A DNA stretch of 64,000 nucleotides, from assembly GCF_014058685.1 (NCBI RefSeq), contig NZ_CP059055.1, forward strand, positions 744,001-808,000, read 5' to 3'. The translations under genes and the position numbers were made by a program. Shown here one piece after another: positions 50,960-64,000 of this stretch. The DNA comes from Lactobacillus johnsonii. GTDB lineage: Bacteria > Bacillota > Bacilli > Lactobacillales > Lactobacillaceae. The notes below the pieces were generated by a model. It did not search any database and was not told the DNA's origin. It saw only the letters and a program-made list of their open reading frames with translations. Numbering within the stretch: position 1 is the first letter of the stretch; each line of letters starts with the position of its first letter.

Positions 50960-52657
50960 ATGCGTCAATCAAAATTTTTTATGCCAACGTTAAAAGAGGC
51001 ACCTTCTGATGCTGTAGCAAAAAGTCACCAATTAATGCTTAGAGGTGGCTATATCCGTCAAGTAACTGCCGGGGTTTATGCATACTTACCTTTGGGGTAC
51101 CGCGTCTTACGCAAGGCGGAAAATATTATTGAAGAAGAAATGGATAATATTAATGTACCTGAAATGATCATGCCTCATCTCTTGCCTGCAACCCTTTGGC
51201 AAGAATCTGGTCGTTATAAAAAATATGGCGCAGAAATGTTTAAGCTTCAAGACCGACATGGACGTGAAAGTTTGCTTGGACCAACACATGAAGAAACCTT
51301 CACTGAAATTGTTGCTAAGAACTTAAAGAGTTACAAGCAAATGCCACTTGCTCTATATCAAATTCAAACTAAATTCCGTGATGAAAATCGTCCACGTTTC
51401 GGTTTACTCCGTGGTAGAGAATTCGTCATGTTAGATGGTTATAGCTTTGCAGCAACTCGTGAACAATTAGATGAACAATTTGATGATCAAAAATCAGCAT
51501 ATTTGAAGATCTTTAATCGTGCTGGTGTTACTGTTCACCCTGTTATTGCAGATTCAGGTACAATGGGTGGAAAGAACTCAACTGAATTTCAAGCTCCTGC
51601 TGCAATTGGTGAAGATACAATTGCTACTAATGAAAAAGGCACTTACGCTGCTAACCTTGAAATGGCTAAAAGTATTGATACTTTTAAACAAGAGCCAGAA
51701 GAAGCAAAAGAATTAGCTAAAGTAGCCACTCCAGGAATGGATACAATTGAAAAGCTAGCTGATTTTCTTAAAGTTCCTTCAACTAGAATTGTTAAGAGTA
51801 TCTTATACATTGCAGATGACCAAAAGGTCTTAGTTCTTATCCGTGGCGATAAGGAAATTAACGAAGTTAAATTAGGTCATATCTTAGATGCAGATGAAGT
51901 TAGAACTGCAAATGCTGATGAATTAGTAGAAATTACCGGTTCAGAAAAGGGCGGCGTTGGACCAATCAATGCTGACTGGGCTGATAAGATTATTGCGGAT
52001 GAAACAGTTAAAGATTTGTACAATGTAGTTGTAGGTGCAAATGAAACCGACTATCAATATCAAAACGCTAATTTAGATCGCGACTTTAAAGTTGACGAAT
52101 TTGCGGATATTCGTACGGCAAATGAAGGAGAACCAGATCCAGTTGATCATTTACCATTGAAATTTACTACTAGTATTGAAGTTGGTCATATCTTTAAATT
52201 AGGTACTTACTATACTGATACTATGGGTGCTGATTTCTTAGATAATAATGGTAAAGCTAAGCCAGTAATCATGGGCTCCTATGGAATTGGGGTAACCAGA
52301 ATGCTGTCAGCTGCAGTTGAACAACACTTAACTGAAAATGGAATCGCATGGCCAAAAGAAATTGCTCCATTTGCCATTCATTTAATTCAAATGAAAATGA
52401 AGGATGAAACTCAAACTGAATTAGCTGAAAAACTTGAAAAAGAACTTTCAGCCAAGTATGATGTTTTATACGATGATAGAAATGAACGACCAGGTGTTAA
52501 ATTTAATGATGCTGACTTAGTCGGAGCACCATTAAGAATTACAATCGGTCGAAAAGCAAAAGATGGTATTGTAGAAGTAAAGCGTCCAATGGATGAAAAG
52601 GCTACTGAAGTTAATATTTCTGATTTGGATGCTGTGATTACAAAAGAGTTAGGATAA
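50960..52657 (+). CDS. proS: Prolyl-tRNA synthetase
   Basis: It charges tRNA(Pro). The 565-residue bacterial-type class II enzyme has motif 2 (FRDENRPRFGLLRGREFVM), LGPTHEETFTEI, and motif 3 near GSYGIGVTRMLSAAVEQ. A YbaK-like editing domain that clears mischarged Ala is inserted at about residues 230-400. The C-terminal anticodon-binding domain follows. GGAGG precedes the ATG. The gene is intact and in the usual place before polC. Confidence 0.97.
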   Translation: MRQSKFFMPTLKEAPSDAVAKSHQLMLRGGYIRQVTAGVYAYLPLGYRVLRKAENIIEEEMDNINVPEMIMPHLLPATLWQESGRYKKYGAEMFKLQDRHGRESLLGPTHEETFTEIVAKNLKSYKQMPLALYQIQTKFRDENRPRFGLLRGREFVMLDGYSFAATREQLDEQFDDQKSAYLKIFNRAGVTVHPVIADSGTMGGKNSTEFQAPAAIGEDTIATNEKGTYAANLEMAKSIDTFKQEPEEAKELAKVATPGMDTIEKLADFLKVPSTRIVKSILYIADDQKVLVLIRGDKEINEVKLGHILDADEVRTANADELVEITGSEKGGVGPINADWADKIIADETVKDLYNVVVGANETDYQYQNANLDRDFKVDEFADIRTANEGEPDPVDHLPLKFTTSIEVGHIFKLGTYYTDTMGADFLDNNGKAKPVIMGSYGIGVTRMLSAAVEQHLTENGIAWPKEIAPFAIHLIQMKMKDETQTELAEKLEKELSAKYDVLYDDRNERPGVKFNDADLVGAPLRITIGRKAKDGIVEVKRPMDEKATEVNISDLDAVITKELG

Positions 52658-52662
52658 TTTTT

Positions 52663-55600
52663 GTGACAAAAAAGAACGAACTTTTCAAAAAACTATTAGA
52701 TCAAATCAAGTTTCCTGATAAGTTTGAAGATAACGATATTGTCCAAAATGGTGAAATTGAAAACGTGGATGTATACGCTAATGAAAGAAAGTGGAAAATC
52801 CACGTTTTTTTTGATACACCATTAGATTTTGAAACTTATCGCTCTCTTAATGAACTTATTCATGAGACTTTTGAACCATTTGTGAATGTTGAATTATTAG
52901 TTCAAACACGCGATGGAAGTAGTAAAAAACTACCGGCCTACTGGACTTATGCCATTCAGAATTCAACTAACCTAAAACCAGCGGTTCGGGAATTTTTACA
53001 AGGACAAGCTCCTTATTTAGAAAAAGAAAAATGGCTAATTCCCACTCAAAACCAAGTAGTAAATGGCTTGCTTTCAGAACAAGTTTTAGCAGAACTAAAT
53101 AAAGAATTCAGACATTATGGTTTCTTTAATATCAAGTTTACAACGAAAGTTGATGAAACTAATATTGATGAAAATTTAAGAAGTCTAGAACAAGAGCAGG
53201 CTCAGCATGAGTCTGCTATGCAAGAATTCTATGAAAAACAACCGGCGGAACCTAAGAAAAAAATGCCTGTTAAGAGTACAAGAATGGGCAACAAAAAGGT
53301 CGATAAAAAAGCTAAATTTATTCAAATTAAAGACTTGGAAGATGGCAGTGGAAACGTAGCTATTGAAGGCCATATTTTTAATACTGATATTCATGAATTA
53401 AAATCTGGAAGTGTAATTTTTACTGGTGAGATTACTGACTATACAGATTCAATTAGCTTTAAAAAATTTGTTTCTGACAAAGATCAAATTGATTATCTAA
53501 AGGGAATTAAACCTGGCGTTTGGGCTAGAATGCAAGGTTATGCAGCTGATGATCAATATCAACATGACGTTGTTTTTAATATTCGAAACTTAGAATTAAT
53601 TGAACATAAGGGTCGAGAAGAAAAGTATGAAGGAGAGAAAAAGCGTGTAGAATTGCACCTTCATACAAATATGAGTCAATTGGACGCAACTAGTACGGCG
53701 AGTGACTTTATCAAAACTGCGAAAAAATTTGGTCAAAAGGCAATTGCAATTACGGATCATGCAGATGTGCAATCTTTCCCGGAAGCTTATCATACTGGTG
53801 CAAGCGAAAAAATGAAGATTTTATATGGCTATGAGGCCAATATGATTGATGATCATGCTTTGCTTGTCCTTAATCCTACTGAAATGGATTATCGAGATCG
53901 TGAATATGTGATTTTCGACGTTGAAACAACAGGACTATCGTCTGTTTACGACACCATTATTGAAATCGGTGCGGTAAAAATGAAAAATGGTGAGGTCCTA
54001 GAAAGATTCGATGAGTTTATCAATCCCCACCATCCCTTAAGTGATACAACGATTAACTTAACATCAATTACTGATGAAATGGTTGGTGCAGCTGATGATG
54101 AAAAAGATGTAATTAAGAAATTTAAAGAATTTTATGGTGATCGTCCTCTCTGTGGACATAATGTTCAATTTGATGTTGGGTTTGTAAATGCGGCTTTACG
54201 CCGTGCAGGTCTAGAAGAAATTACGCAACCTGTTGTTGACACGCTTGAAGTTTCAAGACTTTTGCATCCTGAACAAACTCGCCACACCCTTGATTCTTTA
54301 GCTAAGAAATACAATGTTGTTCTTGAACATCATCACCGCGCTAATCAAGATGCCGAAGCTACAGGATACTTAATGTTTAAATTGCTAGATGCTTTTAATG
54401 AACGTTTTCATGAAGCAGATTTAGGCAAAATGAATGACTATGCTAAATATGGTCAAGTTTATAAGCGAGCTAAGCCAAGTCATATGAGTGTTCTTGCTTT
54501 AAATCAAGAAGGACTAAAAAATATGTACAAGCTTGTATCGCTTGCAAGTACTAAATATTTCTATCGTATTCCACGTACCCCAAAGTCGGAATTAAGAAAA
54601 TATCATAAAGGTTTATTATTTGGTAGTGGGTGCTGGCAAGGCGATGTATTCATTTCAATGATGCAAAAAGGATATGATGAAGCTCGTGAAAAAGCACGTT
54701 TTTATGATTATCTTGAAGTCCAACCGCCAGCAGCTTATCAAACCTTAATTGAAGATGATCTAATTAAAGATGAAGACGAGCTGCATGAAATTATTCAAAA
54801 TATTTATAAATTAGGTAAAGAATTAAATAAACCAGTCGTAGCTACCAGTGACTCGCACTATGTTGAACCGCATGAAGCAATTTATCGTAAAATTTTATTA
54901 GCGGCTCAAAAGGGAAATCCTAATCGCAATAAGAATTTACCGGATTTACATTTTTATTCAACGCAGGAAATGCTTGATGCATTTAGCTTTTTGGGTGAAG
55001 ATGTAGCTAAAGAAATTGTAATTGATAATACCAATAAATTAGCCGATCAAATTGAGGAAATTGCTCCGATTAAAAGTGGACTATATCCACCTCATATTGA
55101 AAATGCGGATCAAGAAATGAAGGATTTAACCTATAATAAAGCCTACGAATTATACGGAAAACCTTTACCAAAGATTGTAGAAGATAGAATTGAACTTGAA
55201 TTGAATTCTATTATTTCAAACGGATATGCAGTTATTTACTTAATTTCTCAAAGGCTTGTTGCCAAATCAAATAAAGACGGATATTTAGTAGGGTCACGTG
55301 GGTCAGTTGGTTCTAGTTTAGTAGCGACGATGTCTGGAATTACGGAAGTAAATCCTTTGGCTCCGCACTATCGTTGTCCGAATTGCAAGTATTCAAAATT
55401 CTTTGAGAATGGAGAATATGGGTCAGGATATGATTTACCTGACAAAGAGTGTTCAAAATGTGGAACTCCATTAGTTAAAGATGGGCAAGATATTCCGTTT
55501 GCTACTTTCTTAGGATTCCATGGAGACAAGGTGCCGGATATCGATTTAAACTTCTCTGGAGACTATCAACCAGTAGCTCATAACTACATTCGAGTTATGT

Positions 55601-56961
55601 TTGGTCCAGACAATTCATTTAGAGCGGGGACGATTGCGACTGTTGCTGATAAGACTGCTTATGGGTATGTTAAGCATTATGAAGATGAAAATGAACTACA
55701 TTTAAGAAATGCTGAGCTTGATCGTCTAGCAGCCGGTGCTTCTGGAGTAAAAAGAACAACTGGACAACACCCAGCAGGTATTGTTGTAGTGCCCGATGAT
55801 ATGGATATTTATGACTTTACTCCAGTCCAGTATCCAGCAGATGATTTAAGTGCAGCTTGGCTTACAACTCACTTTGATTTCCATTCTATCCATGATAATA
55901 TTTTAAAATTTGATATTCTGGGTCACGATGATCCTACCATGATCAGAATGCTACAGGATCTATCCGGAGTTGATCCATTAACTATTCCTCCTGATGATCC
56001 GGGAGTAATGTCTCTCTTCTCAAGTCCTGAAATTTTAGGTGTTACCCCTGAACAAATCCAATCAAAAACGGGAACACTTGGTGTACCAGAATTCGGTACA
56101 AAGTTTGTTAGAGGGATGCTTGAAGAAACAAAACCAACTACTTTCTCAGAATTATTGCAAATTTCTGGCTTATCGCACGGTACTGATGTATGGTTAGGAA
56201 ATGCAGAAGACTTAATTAATAATGGGACTTGTAAGTTGAAGAATGTGATTGGTTGTCGTGATAACATCATGATGGACTTGATTCACTGGGGTGTAAAACC
56301 AGAAGTTGCTTTCTTTACAATGGAATCTGTACGACATGGTAGAGGAATTAGCGATGAAAATATGGAAATCTTGAAAAAGAACGATAAGATTCCTGATTGG
56401 TACATTCCCTCATGTCTTAAGATTAAGTATATGTTCCCTAAAGCCCATGCTACAGCCTATATCCTGATGGCACTGAGAATTGCTTGGTTTAAAGTATATT
56501 ATCCAGTAATTTATTATGCTTCTTACTTCTCTGTTCGTGCTGACTTGTTTGATTTGGTAGCAATGAGTCACGGCAAGAATACAGTTAAAGCTGCAATGAA
56601 AGAAATTCAGGATAAGGGAATGGATGTTTCTGCAAAAGACAAGTCATTACTTACTGTACTTGAAATTGCAAATGAATGTTTAGAGCGTGGAATAAAGATT
56701 AAGATGGTAGATGTAAACGAATCTGAAGCCACAGACTTTAAGATTATTGATGACCATACAATCTTAGCACCATTTAATGCTGTTCCTGGGTTAGGTGACA
56801 ATGCTGCAAAGCAAATTGTAGCTGCACGTGCGGAACAGAAATTTCTTTCAAAAGAAGATCTTGCCACTCGCGGCAAAGTATCACAAACAATTATGGAGTA
56901 TTTTGAAAATAATGGTGTTCTTGAGGGAATGCCTGATCAGAATCAATTGTCACTATTTTAG
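52663..56961 (+). CDS. polC: DNA polymerase III alpha subunit, PolC type
   Basis: The replicative polymerase of Firmicutes, 1432 residues. After an N-terminal region and OB domain (about 230-330), a PHP domain (LHLHTNMSQLDA) is split by a DEDDh proofreading exonuclease (YVIFDVETTGLSS near residue 417; NQDAEATGY near its end). A zinc finger (CPNCKYSKF, then CSKCG) precedes the palm, where PDIDLNFSGDYQP holds catalytic aspartates. The C-terminus ends in the beta-clamp-binding motif QLSLF. The start is GTG 52663, with AGGA nine bases upstream. The next promoter begins nine bases after the stop. Confidence 0.97.
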   Translation: MTKKNELFKKLLDQIKFPDKFEDNDIVQNGEIENVDVYANERKWKIHVFFDTPLDFETYRSLNELIHETFEPFVNVELLVQTRDGSSKKLPAYWTYAIQNSTNLKPAVREFLQGQAPYLEKEKWLIPTQNQVVNGLLSEQVLAELNKEFRHYGFFNIKFTTKVDETNIDENLRSLEQEQAQHESAMQEFYEKQPAEPKKKMPVKSTRMGNKKVDKKAKFIQIKDLEDGSGNVAIEGHIFNTDIHELKSGSVIFTGEITDYTDSISFKKFVSDKDQIDYLKGIKPGVWARMQGYAADDQYQHDVVFNIRNLELIEHKGREEKYEGEKKRVELHLHTNMSQLDATSTASDFIKTAKKFGQKAIAITDHADVQSFPEAYHTGASEKMKILYGYEANMIDDHALLVLNPTEMDYRDREYVIFDVETTGLSSVYDTIIEIGAVKMKNGEVLERFDEFINPHHPLSDTTINLTSITDEMVGAADDEKDVIKKFKEFYGDRPLCGHNVQFDVGFVNAALRRAGLEEITQPVVDTLEVSRLLHPEQTRHTLDSLAKKYNVVLEHHHRANQDAEATGYLMFKLLDAFNERFHEADLGKMNDYAKYGQVYKRAKPSHMSVLALNQEGLKNMYKLVSLASTKYFYRIPRTPKSELRKYHKGLLFGSGCWQGDVFISMMQKGYDEAREKARFYDYLEVQPPAAYQTLIEDDLIKDEDELHEIIQNIYKLGKELNKPVVATSDSHYVEPHEAIYRKILLAAQKGNPNRNKNLPDLHFYSTQEMLDAFSFLGEDVAKEIVIDNTNKLADQIEEIAPIKSGLYPPHIENADQEMKDLTYNKAYELYGKPLPKIVEDRIELELNSIISNGYAVIYLISQRLVAKSNKDGYLVGSRGSVGSSLVATMSGITEVNPLAPHYRCPNCKYSKFFENGEYGSGYDLPDKECSKCGTPLVKDGQDIPFATFLGFHGDKVPDIDLNFSGDYQPVAHNYIRVMFGPDNSFRAGTIATVADKTAYGYVKHYEDENELHLRNAELDRLAAGASGVKRTTGQHPAGIVVVPDDMDIYDFTPVQYPADDLSAAWLTTHFDFHSIHDNILKFDILGHDDPTMIRMLQDLSGVDPLTIPPDDPGVMSLFSSPEILGVTPEQIQSKTGTLGVPEFGTKFVRGMLEETKPTTFSELLQISGLSHGTDVWLGNAEDLINNGTCKLKNVIGCRDNIMMDLIHWGVKPEVAFFTMESVRHGRGISDENMEILKKNDKIPDWYIPSCLKIKYMFPKAHATAYILMALRIAWFKVYYPVIYYASYFSVRADLFDLVAMSHGKNTVKAAMKEIQDKGMDVSAKDKSLLTVLEIANECLERGIKIKMVDVNESEATDFKIIDDHTILAPFNAVPGLGDNAAKQIVAARAEQKFLSKEDLATRGKVSQTIMEYFENNGVLEGMPDQNQLSLF

Positions 56962-56969
56962 CGGGATAA

Positions 56970-56998
56970 TTTACAAATTGCAGTAAATATGCTATTCT
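56970..56998 (+). promoter_or_regulatory. Promoter of the rimP-nusA-infB operon
   Basis: TTTACA (56970-56975), a 17-base spacer and TATTCT (56993-56998) preceded by TGC. The transcript would start near 57005 and run through a terminator hairpin before rimP. Confidence 0.8.
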
Positions 56999-57024
56999 AA
57001 AAACGAAGTTCGAATAGCAAATTC

Positions 57025-57051
57025 GAGTGAGCAGTAATGCTCACTCTTTTT
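57025..57051 (+). terminator. Terminator-like attenuator in the rimP-nusA leader
   Basis: GAGTGAGCA (57025-57033) pairs perfectly with TGCTCACTC (57038-57046) over GTAA, followed by TTTTTATTA. It lies between the promoter and the rimP ribosome site (57057-57064), so it should stop part of the transcripts. A small hairpin CGAAT-AGCAA-ATTCG (57011-57025) directly precedes it and shares one base. Confidence 0.8.
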
Positions 57052-57068
57052 ATTACGGAGGAAGAGAT

Positions 57069-57545
57069 TTGACAAAAGTTACCGAATTGGTGGCAGACGT
57101 AGTTACGCCTTTAGCCGAAGCAAGAGGCGATGAACTGGTCGATGTTGAATATGTAAAGGAAAAGAAGCAATATTATCTTCGCATTTATGTTGATCGTCGC
57201 CCAGGCGGAATTGATATTGAAGAGATCGCAAATTTAAGTGAATTGGTATCAGAAAAACTAGATGAATTAGATCCTGATCCTTTTCCCGAACCGTATATTT
57301 TAGAGCTTTCATCTCCTGGTTTAGAACGTCCAATTAAGAATGAAAAAGATTGGGAACGTGCCAAGGGATCCTACATTCATGTTAGTCTTTATCAAAAAAT
57401 TGATGGTGAAAAGACTTTTGAAGGTACTTTAAAAGATCTCAATCAAGATCAGATCGTCTTAGAAGTAAAGATCAAAACACGACGCAAAGACATCACAATC
57501 CCTAGAAAGGTGATTGCTTCTAGTCGCTTTGCAGTTGAATTTTAG
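57069..57545 (+). CDS. rimP: Ribosome maturation factor RimP
   Basis: RimP is needed for 30S maturation. The 158-residue protein has [22 protein letters not shown]-type N-terminal fold, the [20 protein letters not shown] signature and a C-terminal SH3-like barrel. The start is TTG 57069, seven bases after GGAGG (57057-57061); the open frame upstream crosses the attenuator hairpin and should not be included. It heads rimP-nusA-rnpM-ylxQ-infB. Confidence 0.94.
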
Positions 57546-57564
57546 AAAGGATGATCAAAAACTT

Positions 57565-58785
57565 ATGTCTAAAGAAATGGTGGAAGCCTTTGCAACCTTA
57601 GAAAAAGAAAAAGGCATTAAACAAGAAGTTATTGTTGATGCAATTAAGGCTGCTTTAGTAGCTGCATATAAGAAAAATTATAACCAAGCTCAAAATGTAG
57701 AAGTTGTTTTTGATGAAAAGAAAGGCAACTTCAAAGTTAATGCAATTAAGACTGTAGTTGATGAAGTTCAAGATAGTCGTCTCGAAGTAAGTTTGAAAGA
57801 TGCTCTTGAAATTAACCGTGCTTACGAAGTTGGTGACGAAATTCGTTTTGAAGTAACTCCTAAAGACTTCGGACGTTTAGCTGCTCAAACTGCTAAGCAA
57901 GTTATTATGCAACGTTTACGCGAAGCTGAAAGAGAACATATTATTAGCGAGTACTCTCAATATAAAGATGAAATTGTTACTGGTACAGTTGAAAGACGTG
58001 ACAATCGCTTCGTTTATGTGAAGATTGGAAATGTAGAGGCTGTAATGCCGCATAATGATCAACTACCAGGTGAAACTTACAATCCTCAAGATAAAGTTCG
58101 TGTCTTGGTTACTAGAGTAGGGTCTGATTCAAAGGGAGCACAAATTACAGTTTCTAGAACAGCACCTGATTTAGTAAAACGTCTTTTTGAACAAGAAGTA
58201 CCAGAAGTTTACGATGGAACTGTTGAGATTGTATCCATTGCTCGTGAAGCAGGCGATAGAACCAAGATTGCAGTTAAGAGTAATGATTCTGATATTGATC
58301 CAGTCGGTACCTTAGTAGGACCAAAGGGAGCTCGTGTTCAAAACATCGTTAATGAATTGGGTGGAGAAAATATTGATGTTGTAAAATATGAAGATAATCC
58401 ATCTGATTTTATTGCCAATGCTTTGAATCCAGCAGAAGTAATTGCAGTTCAATTTAGCGGGGATGAAGATGATAAGAATGCTTTGGTAATTGTACCTGAT
58501 TACCAATTGTCATTGGCCATTGGTAAACGTGGTCAAAATGTACGCCTTGCTGCTCGCTTAACTGGCTATAAGATTGACATTAAACCTGAATCACAAGTTG
58601 AATTTGTTGATTCTGAAGGTGATGATGTTGAAGCAGATCAAGAGACTACAAATGATAATGTCTCAAATGAAGAAACACCAGAATCTATTGCTGAACAAAT
58701 TGAAGACGAGCCAAGTGATAAGTTTCCAAATGGAGAAGACGTTAATTCAGCATTAAATGATGATGCAGATAAAGATGAGGAATAG
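57565..58785 (+). CDS. nusA: Transcription termination/antitermination protein NusA
   Basis: NusA binds RNA polymerase and increases pausing and hairpin termination. The 406-residue protein has the N-terminal polymerase-binding domain (about 1-125), an S1 domain (IVTGTVERRDNRFVYVKIGN), and two KH domains with GPKGARVQNI and LAIGKRGQNVRLAARLTGYK. The last ~60 residues are acidic and unstructured. The start ATG 57565 has AAAGGA at a long spacing of about 13 bases; the frame is open upstream into rimP. A terminator-like hairpin stands in the operon leader. Confidence 0.95.
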   Translation: MSKEMVEAFATLEKEKGIKQEVIVDAIKAALVAAYKKNYNQAQNVEVVFDEKKGNFKVNAIKTVVDEVQDSRLEVSLKDALEINRAYEVGDEIRFEVTPKDFGRLAAQTAKQVIMQRLREAEREHIISEYSQYKDEIVTGTVERRDNRFVYVKIGNVEAVMPHNDQLPGETYNPQDKVRVLVTRVGSDSKGAQITVSRTAPDLVKRLFEQEVPEVYDGTVEIVSIAREAGDRTKIAVKSNDSDIDPVGTLVGPKGARVQNIVNELGGENIDVVKYEDNPSDFIANALNPAEVIAVQFSGDEDDKNALVIVPDYQLSLAIGKRGQNVRLAARLTGYKIDIKPESQVEFVDSEGDDVEADQETTNDNVSNEETPESIAEQIEDEPSDKFPNGEDVNSALNDDADKDEE

Positions 58786-58795
58786 GTGACTTTCT

Positions 58796-59092
58796 TTGAA
58801 GAAAAGAAAAATTCCAATGCGTAAAGACTTGTTAACAAATACTATGCAACCAAAAAAAGAATTGGTGCGAGTAGTTGTTGATAAGGATAAAAATATTTCG
58901 GTTGATCCGACTGGAAAGAAATCAGGCAGAGGTGCATATGTATCTTTAGAACCTGATAAAATTGCTGAAGCACAAAAAAATCAAGTTTTGGAAAAAAGCT
59001 TAGGGGTTAAAGTTTCAGCTGATTTTTATGATGATCTTTATGCATATGTTGATCATCAAAAAGCAAGAAAAGAATTGTTTGGTGATAAGTAA
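58796..59092 (+). CDS. rnpM: RNase P modulator RnpM (YlxR)
   Basis: A 98-residue YlxR-family protein, reported to bind and inhibit RNase P RNA. It has KKRKIPMRKDLLTNTMQPKK, ELVRVVVDKD and GRGAYVS, the family core. Start TTG 58796, six bases after AGGTGA (58784-58789). It lies between nusA and ylxQ with gaps of 10 and 2 bases, the conserved order. The usual Cys in the RKC segment is replaced by Asp. Confidence 0.9.
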   Translation: MKKRKIPMRKDLLTNTMQPKKELVRVVVDKDKNISVDPTGKKSGRGAYVSLEPDKIAEAQKNQVLEKSLGVKVSADFYDDLYAYVDHQKARKELFGDK

Positions 59093-59094
59093 TT

Positions 59095-59406
59095 TTGCAA
59101 AACAAACAAAAAACTTTAAATTTACTTGGATTAGCGCAAAAAGCTGGAAAGTTAGCAACGGGATTTGATGCAGTAAAAATATCTTTAAGCAAAAATCAAG
59201 CAAAATTGATTTTTATTGGGAATGATGTAAGTCAAAATACTAAAGATAAACTGAATTTCCTTATAAGAAAAAAAGATGTCAAACTAGTAGACACTTTTTC
59301 TAGTGCTGAAATAACACAGGCCCTTGGAAAAGAAAGAAAATTAGTTTCTGTTACGGATTCCGGTTTCAGCAAAGCAATGATAAAGAATTTAAACGAAGGA
59401 GTGTGA
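59095..59406 (+). CDS. ylxQ: L7Ae-family K-turn RNA-binding protein YlxQ
   Basis: A 103-residue L7Ae/L30e-fold protein: [20 protein letters not shown] and [18 protein letters not shown] are the family core. Homologues bind kink-turn RNA; the cellular target is unknown. Start TTG 59095 is ten bases after GGTG. It ends one base before the alternative TTG start of infB, and translation is probably coupled. Confidence 0.9.
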
Positions 59407-59410
59407 TTTG

Positions 59411-62053
59411 ATGGCTAAAAAACGTATTTATGAAGTAGCGAAAGAATTAGACATTGAAAACAAAATTGTTGTAAAAAAGGCACAAGATTTGGGTTTTGAT
59501 GTAAAGAGCCACATGTCCTCCCTAGATGATAAGCAAGTTTCTAAGTTAGTAGATAGTTTGAAGTCTACTAATACTACTCCATCTACTGAAAAGGATTCTA
59601 AAAATTCAAGTCGTAAAGAAAAAGCTAAAATAAAGGTTTCTGTGGGTGCAATTCGTCGTCGTGATAATAAAAATGAACATGATAATCGTCACGGAAATAA
59701 CAAGCACAGAAATAATAATTTTAAAAAACAACAAAATAATCGACGTGAGAATGAAGATAAAAAGACAACTTCTGCTAAACCAGCAGCACGTGATTTATTA
59801 AATAAATTTAAGAAAAAACAAAGAGCCGAAGCTAGTGAATTAAACGCTCAGACTGAGGCTTCCCGCCGTAAATGGCATCAAGAACAAAATCCTCAAAGAT
59901 CAAAGGTTAAAAAAGTGGAAAATACTCGTAAGCCAAAAGAAGAAAAACTCGAAGGAGCTGCAGCTGTAAAAGCTCGTGTTCAAGCTTCACAAAAACCAGT
60001 TGGTCCAAAGATTATTAAACCATCGCCGGCTAGAAATAAGGCTAAGAGACCTACTGTAAAAAAGGTAGAGCCTATCGCTCCAGTTGTACCTGCTCCTCAA
60101 AAAGAAGAAACAAAGCCAACTCGTAAGAAAGACTTTACTCGTAAGAAACGTGAAGTGCCAGATTATGAACGTGAAAGAAGCGAACATTCAGATAAGGCAC
60201 GTCGTCGTAGAAATAAAAAGAATAAACGTATCAACCAAAGTAAAGAAGTCAAGAAGCAACCAACTCAAAGAAAGGAACGTCCATTGCCAGAAACATTAGT
60301 TTATGAAGAAGGCATGAATGCTCAAGATTTAGGAAAACTTCTTCATAGAGAGCCTGCAGAAATTGTTAAGAAGCTATTTATGTTAGGTGTTATGACTAAC
60401 CAAAACCAATCTTTAGATAAGGATACTATTGAGCTTTTAGCAGCTGAATATGGTATTGAAGCTGAAGAAAAAGTGCATGAAGATATCTCTGATATTGATA
60501 CTTTATACACTAAGGAAATGGAAGAATCTAAAGCTTCTAAGCATCAAGAAAAACGTCCACCAGTTGTAACAATTATGGGTCACGTTGACCACGGTAAGAC
60601 TACTTTACTTGATAGATTGCGTCACACTAACGTGTCTGAACACGAAGCCGGTGGTATTACTCAGAGAATCGGTGCTTATCAAGTAAGAATCGATGATCGT
60701 TTAATTACTTTCTTAGATACTCCAGGACATGCCGCTTTCTCAAATATGCGTGCCCGTGGTGCTGAAATTACCGATATCGTTATCTTAGTAGTTGCAGCTG
60801 ATGATGGTGTAATGCCACAAACAATTGAAGCTATTGACCATGCTAAGAGTGCTGGGGTTCCGATTATTGTTGCTGTGAACAAGATTGATAAGCCAGGCGC
60901 AAATCCTGATCATGTTATGGAACAACTTATGAAATATGGTTTAGTTCCTGAAGATTGGGGTGGCGATACAATCTTTGTTAAGATCTCTGCTAAGACTGGT
61001 AAAAATGTTGAAGAGCTCTTGCAAATGATTTTACTTCAAGCTGATGTCATGGAACTTAAGGCTGATCCAGATCAAAAAGCAATTGGTACTGTAATTGAAG
61101 CTCGTCTTGATAAGGGCCGTGGTTCAGTAGCAGATATTTTAGTTCAACAAGGTACATTAAAGGTTGGAGATCCAATTGTTGTTGGTGATACATTTGGCCG
61201 TGTTCGTGTTATGACTAATGATAAGGGACGTAGAGTGAAGAAGGCTACCCCATCTACTCCTGTAGAAATTACCGGTTTAAATGATGTTCCAGAAGCAGCT
61301 GATAAATTAGTTGTCTTTGATGATGAAAAGACTGCTAGAAGCGTTGGTGAACAACGTGCTAAGAATGCCTTAGAAAAACAACGTGAAAATGTCCAACATG
61401 TTACTTTAGACAACTTGTTTGATACAATGAAGAAAGAGAACATGAAGGAAGTTGACATTGTTCTTAAGGCTGACGTTCAAGGTTCAGCAGAAGCATTGCA
61501 ACAATCTCTTGAAAAGATCGAAGTTGAAGGTGTAAGAGTTAACATTATTCACTCTGGTGTTGGTGCCATTAATGAATCTGATGTTACTTTAGCTGGTGCT
61601 TCAAATGCATTTATTGTCGGTTTCAATGTTCGACCAACTAATACTGCTAAGAGTCAAGCAGATTCTGAAGGTGTAGATATTCGTCTATATAACATTATTT
61701 ACAAGGTTATGGATGATGTAGAAGCTGCAATGAAGGGTATGCTTGAACCTACATACGAAGAAAAAGTTACTGGTAACTTAACTGTTCGTGAAACTTGGAA
61801 GGTATCTAAGATTGGTACAATTGCTGGTGCCTTTGTTGATAACGGATATGTTACTAGAGATTCAGGTATTCGTGTAATTCGTGATGGTATTGTTAAATAT
61901 GATGGAAAAGTTGCATCTCTAAAGCGTTTCAAGGATGACGTTAAGGAAGTTAAGCAAGGATTTGATTGTGGTATCACAATTGAAAACTTTAATGACATTA
62001 AAGTTGACGATCAACTTGAGGCCTACGAGATGCAAGAGGTACCTGTTAAATAG
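59411..62053 (+). CDS. infB: Translation initiation factor IF-2
   Basis: The GTPase that places fMet-tRNA in the ribosomal P site. The 880-residue protein has a long, very basic, low-complexity N-terminal region (about 50-300) and an IF2_N helical motif near 295-345. The GTPase domain has [12 protein letters not shown] (near 389), [12 protein letters not shown] and NKIDKPGAN, followed by domains II, III and IV. Start: AAGGAG (59396-59401) suits TTG 59408 or ATG 59411; I chose the ATG. The N-terminal extension is longer than the core but ordinary for the genus. Confidence 0.96.
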
Positions 62054-62083
62054 GCATCTTTTTTCACAAAAAGGAGCTTAATT

Positions 62084-62455
62084 ATGAAACATAGAATTGG
62101 TCGTGTAGAAGGCGAAATTTTACGTGAATTGACAAAGATATTACGTAAAGATATTCGTGATCCACGTTTAAATGATGTCACTATCACAGCTGTAGAATGT
62201 ACAAATGATTTATCATATGCGACTGTTTACTACAGTATGTTGACAGATGATCCAGCAAAGGAAAAAGAAGTAGCTGAAGGACTTGATAAAGCAAAAGGTA
62301 TGATGCGTCACTTGCTTGGTCAAACTTTAACTGTTTACAAGGTTCCTGAGTTGATTTTTAAACGTGATACTTCTGTTGCTTATGGTTCTAAGATTGATAA
62401 GTTAATTAATCAAGTCAAGAAGCAAGATCAAGAACGCGAGAATAAAAATAAATAA
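62084..62455 (+). CDS. rbfA: Ribosome-binding factor A
   Basis: A 123-residue KH-like protein for late 30S maturation near the 16S 5' end. It has KHRIGRVEGEILRELTKILRKDIRDPRL and the VYYSMLTDDPAKEKEV segment; the C-terminus is charged. AAGGAG stands before the ATG. It follows infB after 30 bases and is separated from truB by a terminator-like hairpin. Confidence 0.95.
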   Translation: MKHRIGRVEGEILRELTKILRKDIRDPRLNDVTITAVECTNDLSYATVYYSMLTDDPAKEKEVAEGLDKAKGMMRHLLGQTLTVYKVPELIFKRDTSVAYGSKIDKLINQVKKQDQERENKNK

Positions 62456-62460
62456 ATGAA

Positions 62461-62488
62461 AGAGACGCCGAAAGGCGTCTTTTATTTT
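62461..62488 (+). terminator. Terminator-like hairpin between rbfA and truB
   Basis: AGACGCC (62463-62469) pairs perfectly with GGCGTCT (62474-62480) around a GAAA tetraloop, followed by TTTATTTT. The T-rich run leads straight into the truB ribosome site, so it may be a partial terminator inside the operon. Confidence 0.8.
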
Positions 62489-62500
62489 GGAGATTAAATA

Positions 62501-63394
62501 ATGCTAAATGGAATTGTAGTAGTAAATAAGCCACGCGGAGTAACCAGTAGTGACTGTGTTTATAAATTACGAAAAATTTTACAAATTAGAAAAATTGGAC
62601 ATGCAGGTACACTGGATCCAGAAGTAAATGGGGTATTACCGATTGCAATTGGCCAAGCCACAAAGCTAATTGAATTGATGCATGAAAAACCAAAGTCATA
62701 TATTGGAAGTGGAATGTTTGGTAAAGCAACCGATAGCTATGATTTAGATGGAACAACCACTGCAGAAGAAAAGATAGTTACTCCATTTACAAGTGATGAA
62801 ATTATTAGTGGAATGAAAAAACTTACTGGAAAGATTGATCAAGTTCCTCCAATATATTCTGCGGTCCGTGTTAATGGTAAAAGACTTTATGAATATGCTC
62901 GAGAAAATATCCCAGTAGAACGTCCGAAAAGAAAAGTAAACATTTATAGTTATGAATTAACTCAAGATCCAGAATATGATCCACTAGAAAAAACTGAAAG
63001 TTTTAATTTTGCTATTCGCTGTTCTAAAGGAACCTATGTACGATCCCTAGTAAATGATTTGGGAGAGGAATTGGGAGTTCCAGCTGTAATGACCAGTCTT
63101 ACTAGAACTAGCAGTTCAGGTTTTGATTTAAGTCAAGCGGTAGATCTAGAAACTATTGAAAAAGAAATAGATTATCCTGAAAAATGGCTTCAACCAATTG
63201 ATAGCTTTTTCGTAGATTTACCCCAACTTCAAATATCACCAGATCAATTTAAAAGAGTTTCAAATGGAGCAAGCATTAAATTGAATACCACTTATGCCAA
63301 GGTAGCTTTGGTTTATAATGGACATATAAAAGCTATTTATCAACGACAAGGTAAAATTTATCGTCCTGAAATGATGCTTTTAAAAAATGAATAG
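62501..63394 (+). CDS. truB: tRNA pseudouridine55 synthase TruB
   Basis: It makes pseudouridine 55 in the T loop of tRNAs. The 297-residue protein has NGIVVVNKPRGVTSSD, the catalytic segment GHAGTLDPEVNGVLPIAIG with D39, and KGTYVRSLVNDLGEELG. The C-terminal part is the short Firmicute extension. GGAG precedes the ATG. truB-ribF is the conserved pair. It follows a hairpin between rbfA and itself. Confidence 0.96.
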   Translation: MLNGIVVVNKPRGVTSSDCVYKLRKILQIRKIGHAGTLDPEVNGVLPIAIGQATKLIELMHEKPKSYIGSGMFGKATDSYDLDGTTTAEEKIVTPFTSDEIISGMKKLTGKIDQVPPIYSAVRVNGKRLYEYARENIPVERPKRKVNIYSYELTQDPEYDPLEKTESFNFAIRCSKGTYVRSLVNDLGEELGVPAVMTSLTRTSSSGFDLSQAVDLETIEKEIDYPEKWLQPIDSFFVDLPQLQISPDQFKRVSNGASIKLNTTYAKVALVYNGHIKAIYQRQGKIYRPEMMLLKNE

Positions 63395-63406
63395 TGAGAG
63401 TAAAAA

Positions 63407-64000
63407 ATGAAAGTAATAACCTTAGATTATCCTATTTCTGCACCTATCACGACTAAAAAGGTAATCTTAACGCTAGGTTTTTTTGATGGGGTGCATATTG
63501 GACATCAAAAACTCATTAAAGATGCTAAGCTAATAGCAGAACAAAAGCACTTACCATTAATGGTAATGACTTTTGATAAACATCCTAAAGAAATTTATAA
63601 AAACGATCATAAATTTGTCTATTTAGAAACTGAGCAAGAAAAAGAGCGTAAAATGGAGAAGCTGGGAGTAGATTACTTAGTAATTATTAAATTTACTAAA
63701 GAATTTAGCCAGCTTTCGCCTCAAGATTTTGTTGATCAGGTGGTAATGAAACTCAAAGCTGATACAGTAGTCGTTGGTTTTGATTATACTTATGGCCCCA
63801 AAGATATTGCTAATGTAGAAAATCTACCTAAATTTGCTAAAGATAGATTTAAAATTGTAGTGGAGCCAAAACAAGCAATAGATAAAATAAAAGTGGGATC
63901 TACTTATATTAGAAAAGCTATTCAGCATGGAAATGTTGAACTAGCAGCTGAGTTACTTGGCCAGCCTTATGAAACTTCTGGCATTATTGTTCACGGCTTC
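63407..64000 (+). CDS. ribF: Riboflavin kinase/FAD synthetase RibF (partial, N-terminal 198 residues)
   Basis: A bifunctional enzyme that makes FMN and FAD from riboflavin. The visible part is the FAD synthetase domain: LTLGFFDGVHIGHQKLI with the nucleotidyltransferase GxHxGH, VVGFDYTYG, and STYIRKAIQHGNVELAAELL. The C-terminal riboflavin kinase domain begins at the window edge (GQPYETSGIIVHGF). No frameshift in the visible part. The start ATG 63407 follows GAGAG 12 bases after truB. Confidence 0.93.
   Translation, partial: MKVITLDYPISAPITTKKVILTLGFFDGVHIGHQKLIKDAKLIAEQKHLPLMVMTFDKHPKEIYKNDHKFVYLETEQEKERKMEKLGVDYLVIIKFTKEFSQLSPQDFVDQVVMKLKADTVVVGFDYTYGPKDIANVENLPKFAKDRFKIVVEPKQAIDKIKVGSTYIRKAIQHGNVELAAELLGQPYETSGIIVHGF

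Follow-up and report, generated by a model that had tools for sequence, protein, structure and literature searches.

The idea that NusA controls its own synthesis through a terminator in the leader of its operon is already in print for relatives of Lactobacillus and is not new. Mondal et al. 2016 reportedly described autoregulation of NusA in Bacillus subtilis by NusA-stimulated termination in its own leader. The 5' leader of rimP-nusA-infB is known as the rimP-leader, called the most ubiquitous attenuator by Naville and Gautheret 2010 (PMC2965389). According to that paper, the rimP-leader has a sequence-conserved terminator stem with a G-rich 5' arm and a C-rich 3' arm, followed by a T-stretch, and neither an antiterminator nor any larger conserved element could be seen in it; the B. 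subtilis leader is 180 nt long. The paper argues that the stem sequence is recognized, naming RimP as a possible alternative; we found no explanation of this recognition in the open-access literature. For B. subtilis, NusA autoregulation via leader termination is reported in a review (PMC12288461), according to which NusA influences termination at most intrinsic terminators, so that a circuit setting the NusA level matters for the whole transcriptome. In a model for B. subtilis, NusA assists suboptimal hairpins and U-tracts. In Streptococcus agalactiae, the leader of gbs0413-gbs0418 shows termination 31 nt after the start, and NusA feedback has been proposed for it (PMC4448216). In Escherichia coli, NusA feedback on the corresponding operon is described for the metY-nusA-infB leader, as cited in PMC4448216 and PMC2965389.

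The window, that is, the whole 64,000-nt stretch of Lactobacillus johnsonii DNA that was analyzed, belongs to a 1.95-Mb genome in one contig and is 98.8% identical to L. johnsonii ATCC 33200 over 7343 nt. The gene order is polC, rimP, nusA, rnpM (ylxR), ylxQ, infB, rbfA, truB, and all of them pass a curated NCBIfam cut-off but for ylxQ, which falls short of it even with its best match. All features described below are on the forward strand. The rimP gene (57069-57545; NF000928, above cut-off) is followed by nusA, the presumed source of the feedback (57565-58785; TIGR01953, above cut-off, ATG start placed by eye), and, downstream of rnpM and ylxQ, by infB, encoding IF-2 (59411-62053; TIGR00487, above cut-off). 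The rimP start codon (57069-57071) is TTG here and in 73 of 74 genus genomes in total, and GTG in the remaining one. The 107 nt that separate it from the polC stop (56961) hold a promoter-like site with an extended -10, two hairpins (a small one and the 9-bp terminator), the run TTTTTATT and the ribosome-binding site of rimP, GGAGG (57057-57061, read from the sequence), which is 10 nt from the end of the stem. As in the published rimP-leader, this leader lies 5' of the rimP-nusA-infB operon.

We consider it likely that the leader represents the Lactobacillus version of the transcription attenuator known as rimP-leader, with NusA as the proposed signal and with the small hairpin (hairpin 1) competing with the terminator. 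Judging from conservation and published work on relatives, attenuation of rimP-nusA is well supported, and NusA is the leading candidate regulator. NusA is the best candidate because it is encoded in the operon, because of the B. subtilis report and the S. agalactiae proposal, and because of the suboptimal-hairpin model from B. subtilis. The B. subtilis system is alike in having a leader terminator ahead of nusA and NusA feedback, which is reported from experiment there and proposed here. The S. agalactiae one shares a promoter-proximal terminator with a short RNA from the same start.

The original prediction of a complete terminator, with a perfect 9-bp stem and a T-run, between a promoter and rimP was borne out at 57025-57051. 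In the DNA, the hairpin is GAGTGAGCA-GTAA-TGCTCACTC (57025-57046, nine perfect pairs), followed by TTTTT (57047-57051) and then by ATT; in the RNA, the intrinsic terminator hairpin is GAGUGAGCA-GUAA-UGCUCACUC with the U-tract UUUUUAUU (57047-57054), interrupted after five U. An intrinsic hairpin with a T-stretch is, again, what characterizes the rimP-leader. The tally for the genus, 76 rows with two repeats of the window among them, gave the run TTTTTATT in 73. Among 14 terminator-like sites in the region 52000-64000 (6.1 +/- 2.2 in shuffles) the hairpin has the most pairs, and folded alone it reaches -14.4 kcal/mol (z -5.8; 0 of 200 shuffles as good). In line with what had been stated originally for polC, the terminator scan listed no second forward-strand site between the polC stop and 57025. 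No second copy of the stem with up to three mismatches occurs in the same genome, and the stem pattern has no matches in viral contigs. No Rfam family reached its gathering score in the window or in the loci of ten relatives, and the five matches obtained at E up to 10 all fall far below their own gathering scores, none being credible; no riboswitch, T-box or other RNA of a curated Rfam family was recognized.

The promoter had been called strong. By the consensus, the site at 56970-56998 is TTTACA-17-TATTCT with TG ahead of the -10, consisting of a -35-like hexamer TTTACA (56970-56975), by eye less conserved in the genus than the -10, and an extended -10, TGC TATTCT (56990-56998). Since shuffled sequences of the region yield more promoter-like sites than the region itself (42.7 vs 30), the consensus match alone means little. 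Conservation supports the site itself: an extended -10 of the form TG-N-TANN[CAT]T ends 25-37 nt upstream of the stem in 71 of 74 Lactobacillus leaders, and the other three have TG-A-TATAGT, outside the search pattern. The promoter is thereby predicted from consensus and conservation, its -10 positions coming from a simple consensus search; with this predicted promoter upstream of the terminator and nusA downstream, the locus has the arrangement of a NusA-autoregulated attenuator. If transcription starts 7 nt after the -10, the terminated leader RNA would be about 49 nt long (57005-57053).

The spacing of these elements was compared using one leader per genus. The -10-to-stem distance is 27 nt in the window, and its medians are 28 nt in other genera of the family, 27 nt in the order and 35 nt in the class (from 21 of 23 genera, the sequence stretch having ended early in two that gave no -10). 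The overall median absolute deviation is 3 nt, compared with a mean of 9.3 and a lowest value of 6.0 in 200 shuffled upstream sets. Between the last C of the stem and the gene there are 21-23 nt in 72 of 74 genus leaders, whereas the 139 leaders from outside the genus have 23 to 272 nt there (21 to 272 nt overall). As the distance to the promoter is fixed while the distance to the gene varies, the terminator belongs to the promoter. This agrees with the S. agalactiae leader, where termination comes 31 nt downstream of the start (PMC4448216), and with the 180-nt B. subtilis leader (PMC2965389) if B. subtilis resembles the class loci in which about 130 nt separate terminator and gene. The fixed promoter distance also suggests why the leader element is so short.

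Of the 75 genus genomes, 74 gave a RimP match, and in every one of these the leader is present; the exception (G057, 85% complete) has no RimP match, no RbfA match and no leader. A covariance model of the leader gave one strong match, of at least 65 bits, in each of 74 of the 75 genomes; its other matches in the genus, with 26 to 33 bits, were treated as chance. The 5' arm reads GAGTGAGC in 71 of the 74 genomes and GAGTGGGC in three, and the 3' arm reads GCTCACTC in 72 and GCTCGCTC in two, while the part between the arms takes 29 forms. As a control we used the 3' terminator of rbfA from the same operon (62460-62483), whose stem varies in sequence and length across the genus. The rimP-leader stem arm core is one sequence in 30 of 30 genomes (pairwise identity 1.00), and the control has 14 arm cores in the same 30 genomes (mean pairwise identity 0.50); this comparison involves one terminator and the 30 best RbfA matches, hence near relatives. 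Set against this one control, a stem so fixed in sequence appears unusual and, as in the published rimP-leader, unlike ordinary terminators; the conservation indicates selection on the leader. That the stem sequence is so nearly invariant suggests, moreover, that something reads it, which general stimulation by NusA does not need.

The literal published core, GGGc(...)gCCC in PMC2965389, is absent from the window leader, which has GAGC(...)GCTC instead, with one pair changed on both sides. We read the Lactobacillus stem as homologous with the published core, with one compensated pair change. A second difference is that Lactobacillus has a conserved competing hairpin. Because of hairpin 1 and the changed core the leader is filed as a variant, the absence of an antiterminator being a remark of the 2010 paper and not a requirement.

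Conservation of the terminator in related species, which the original prediction had called for, extends far beyond the genus. We examined 37 of the family's 39 other genera (the two left out have the weakest RimP matches), 26 of the order's 28 and, in the class, 23 of 46 with the best-scoring NusA matches, a sample that favours nearer relatives. By the hairpin cut-off used, a terminator precedes rimP in 85 of these 86 Bacilli genera. The stem is of the GTG(A/G)G type in 79 genera (33 of 37 in the family, 23 of 25 in the order, 23 of 23 in the class) and of another G-rich type in six of the 85 terminator-bearing ones. Most Lactobacillaceae have GAGTGAGCA, many genera of the order have GAGTGAGCG or GAGTGAGGG at this place, and GAGTGGG stems precede rimP in 28 of 28 class-level loci. 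A family search with the plain Lactobacillus stem pattern gave matches in 135 of 301 genomes, with none in reversed-pattern controls, and RimP was beside the match in 29 of 30 loci examined. The 220 leaders collected were reduced to 215 rows, including three copies of the window, by omitting L176-L179 (no genus placement, repeats of included genomes) and L221 (best hairpin of -4.5 kcal/mol, under the cut-off, although the GAGTGAGC arm is present). In genus g43, which we take to be Streptococcus, six of the seven leaders (L205-L211) have a GAGGCG...CGCCTC stem, the T-run being mostly imperfect, so that this branch has a remodelled leader element; this stem and the termination already at 31 nt in S. 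agalactiae are where the streptococcal system differs from ours. In four distant genera of the family (L170-L173) ATGAGC or ATGGGC-type stems with other loops were observed, as another remodelling.

Hairpin 1, identified by folding and genus conservation, consists of the 5' arm UUCGAAU (57009-57015) and the 3' arm AUUCGAG (57021-57027), which overlaps the first bases of the terminator arm. Positions 57010-57015 pair with 57021-57026, and 57009 and 57027 form an additional U-G pair. The two hairpins had been described as sharing one base; in the window they in fact share two Watson-Crick positions (57025 and 57026), or three including the wobble pair, and of the 74 genus leaders 57 have a two-base and 17 a one-base overlap. 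Computed for a transcript that does not yet include the 3' arm of the terminator, the leader folds into a seven-pair hairpin 1 (-4.7 kcal/mol) that takes up the first three bases of the terminator arm. For the complete leader, the computed energies are -16.5 kcal/mol with the full terminator and a shortened hairpin 1, and -15.4 kcal/mol with the six-pair hairpin 1 and a terminator lacking its two basal pairs; the median gap between the two folds in 74 genus leaders is 1.1 kcal/mol (range 1.1 to 3.2), calculated for isolated RNA and not for RNA inside the exit channel.

The six pairs of hairpin 1 are retained in all 52 distinct genus leaders, where the match pattern admits pairing letters only, the test being that no leader failed. 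On the rimP tree, seven changes are inferred at the 12 paired positions, all of them G-U-consistent and none breaking a pair, though one of the seven, found in the ATTCGG subgroup, could instead be an insertion of one base. The MAFFT alignment A1, covering 27 of the 52 distinct leaders, misplaced this subgroup, so the pair counts come from anchored matching of all 52 leaders; model R1 derives from A1 with the misplacement left in. No two-sided (compensating) changes occur in hairpin 1 pairs among the 52 distinct leaders. The proposed comparison of lactobacilli has thus found both hairpins conserved and covariation of hairpin 1 lacking; the G-U-keeping changes, together with sequence conservation, point to a constraint on pairing, not to full covariation. 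In one leader of the window genus, the upstream pairing probability shows no excess over its own shuffles (0.64 vs 0.42, with 16% of shuffles as high), so the argument for hairpin 1 rests on its conservation. With the six pairs kept throughout the genus and folds about 1 kcal/mol apart, the competition between folds that had been suggested for the window is supported beyond expectation.

Other Lactobacillaceae have differing sequences, often with a segment like AACUC before the stem that is able to pair with its GAGU foot. The mean pairing probability of the upstream segment with the stem foot in these genera is 0.69 vs 0.51 for shuffled sequences (none of 300 shuffle sets came as high), and 0.67 vs 0.52 for alternative representatives; as the genera are related and kinship was not corrected for, the shuffle count overstates the strength of this excess. 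For the remaining genera of the order (z 0.5 to 1.2) and for the class (z -0.2 to -0.4) such pairing does not exceed that in shuffles, and one g43 representative showed none. The competing hairpin as a general feature of rimP-leaders was therefore rejected, the enrichment being seen in Lactobacillaceae and not in other genera of the order or in the class. A Lactobacillus variant with a conserved upstream hairpin competing for the two basal pairs of the terminator was not found in the open-access literature. An 8-bp inverted repeat, TGCTATTC/GAATAGCA (56990-56997 and 57012-57019), lies across the predicted start site; only a transcript read through from upstream could fold it as RNA. As a mechanism it was rejected, being present in only 11 of 74 genus genomes.

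Taken as a NusA-controlled attenuator, the leader would work as follows. RNA polymerase would start from the promoter ending at 56998, make a leader of about 49 nt, and either stop at the terminator (57025-57051) or read into rimP-nusA-rnpM-ylxQ-infB-rbfA. Hairpin 1 would fold first and occupy bases needed to close the terminator foot beside the U-tract; the terminator would have to displace it, and termination would be kept below saturation. More NusA would then mean more termination and less operon mRNA. The strong stem (-14.4 kcal/mol) could, against this reading, terminate without NusA; hairpin 1, by making it suboptimal at the foot, would leave room for NusA, which helps hairpins form. 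The Lactobacillus form would be a concrete, small and testable switch, of hairpin 1 against the stem foot.

A stricter form of this proposal, which we put forward tentatively and regard as somewhat unlikely, is that in Lactobacillaceae the leader is a two-state switch, where the near-isoenergetic small hairpin keeps the stem foot open and the terminator closes only if NusA has already joined the polymerase within about 50 nt of the start. Were it true, the fixed promoter-terminator distance would let the leader gauge the speed of free NusA binding after sigma leaves.

The sequence of the stem, kept beyond what pairing needs, suggests recognition, and the attenuator may be real with its stem read by RimP, RnpM, YlxQ, IF2, RbfA or an unknown termination or antitermination factor, an explanation that we hold to be unlikely. 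YlxQ is presumably L7Ae-like, and the perfectly paired stem would offer no kink-turn site for such a protein. The recognition argued for in PMC2965389, with RimP as its possible alternative, speaks for another reader, and the NusA feedback reported for B. subtilis (PMC12288461) speaks against it.

The same B. subtilis regulation argues against a constitutive damper, which would remove a fixed share of transcripts with no signal altering that share. The strong stem and the absence of an Rfam match are compatible with a damper, but for a fixed share the stem sequence need not be conserved and no competing hairpin is needed, and we find the damper distinctly improbable.

The constant terminator-to-start distance within the genus could also mean that the palindrome is a DNA operator, or an mRNA stability or translation element beside the ribosome-binding site. 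The RNAalifold structure suggested a downstream helix of 57009-57016 (UUCGAAUA) with 57051-57059 (UAUU-A-CGGA), which after readthrough would cover the U-tract end and part of the ribosome-binding site, and which is intact in 45 of 52 distinct leaders. This helix was not adopted, as it is broken in the other seven, whereas hairpin 1 is broken in none; outside the genus, moreover, the distance is not kept and the stem type mostly is, which makes an operator or translation element very unlikely.

That the hairpin is mainly a polC terminator insulating rimP without any regulation agrees with the lack of a further forward-strand terminator-like site in the gap, but is scarcely credible, because the promoter-like site falls between polC and the terminator, a plain terminator, as seen from the rbfA control, is free to change in sequence, and promoter and leader still precede rimP in all seven of 74 genus genomes where polC was not found beside it (three with 616-1366 nt between them, four with no polC in the stretch read), three of the seven having, by eye, their own hairpin and T-run after polC. 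Ending of polC readthrough, which the original prediction had allowed for, would be at most a side effect. In L029, L030 and L031, a hairpin with a T-run directly after polC is accompanied by an inserted reading frame (by eye), and rimP keeps its promoter and leader.
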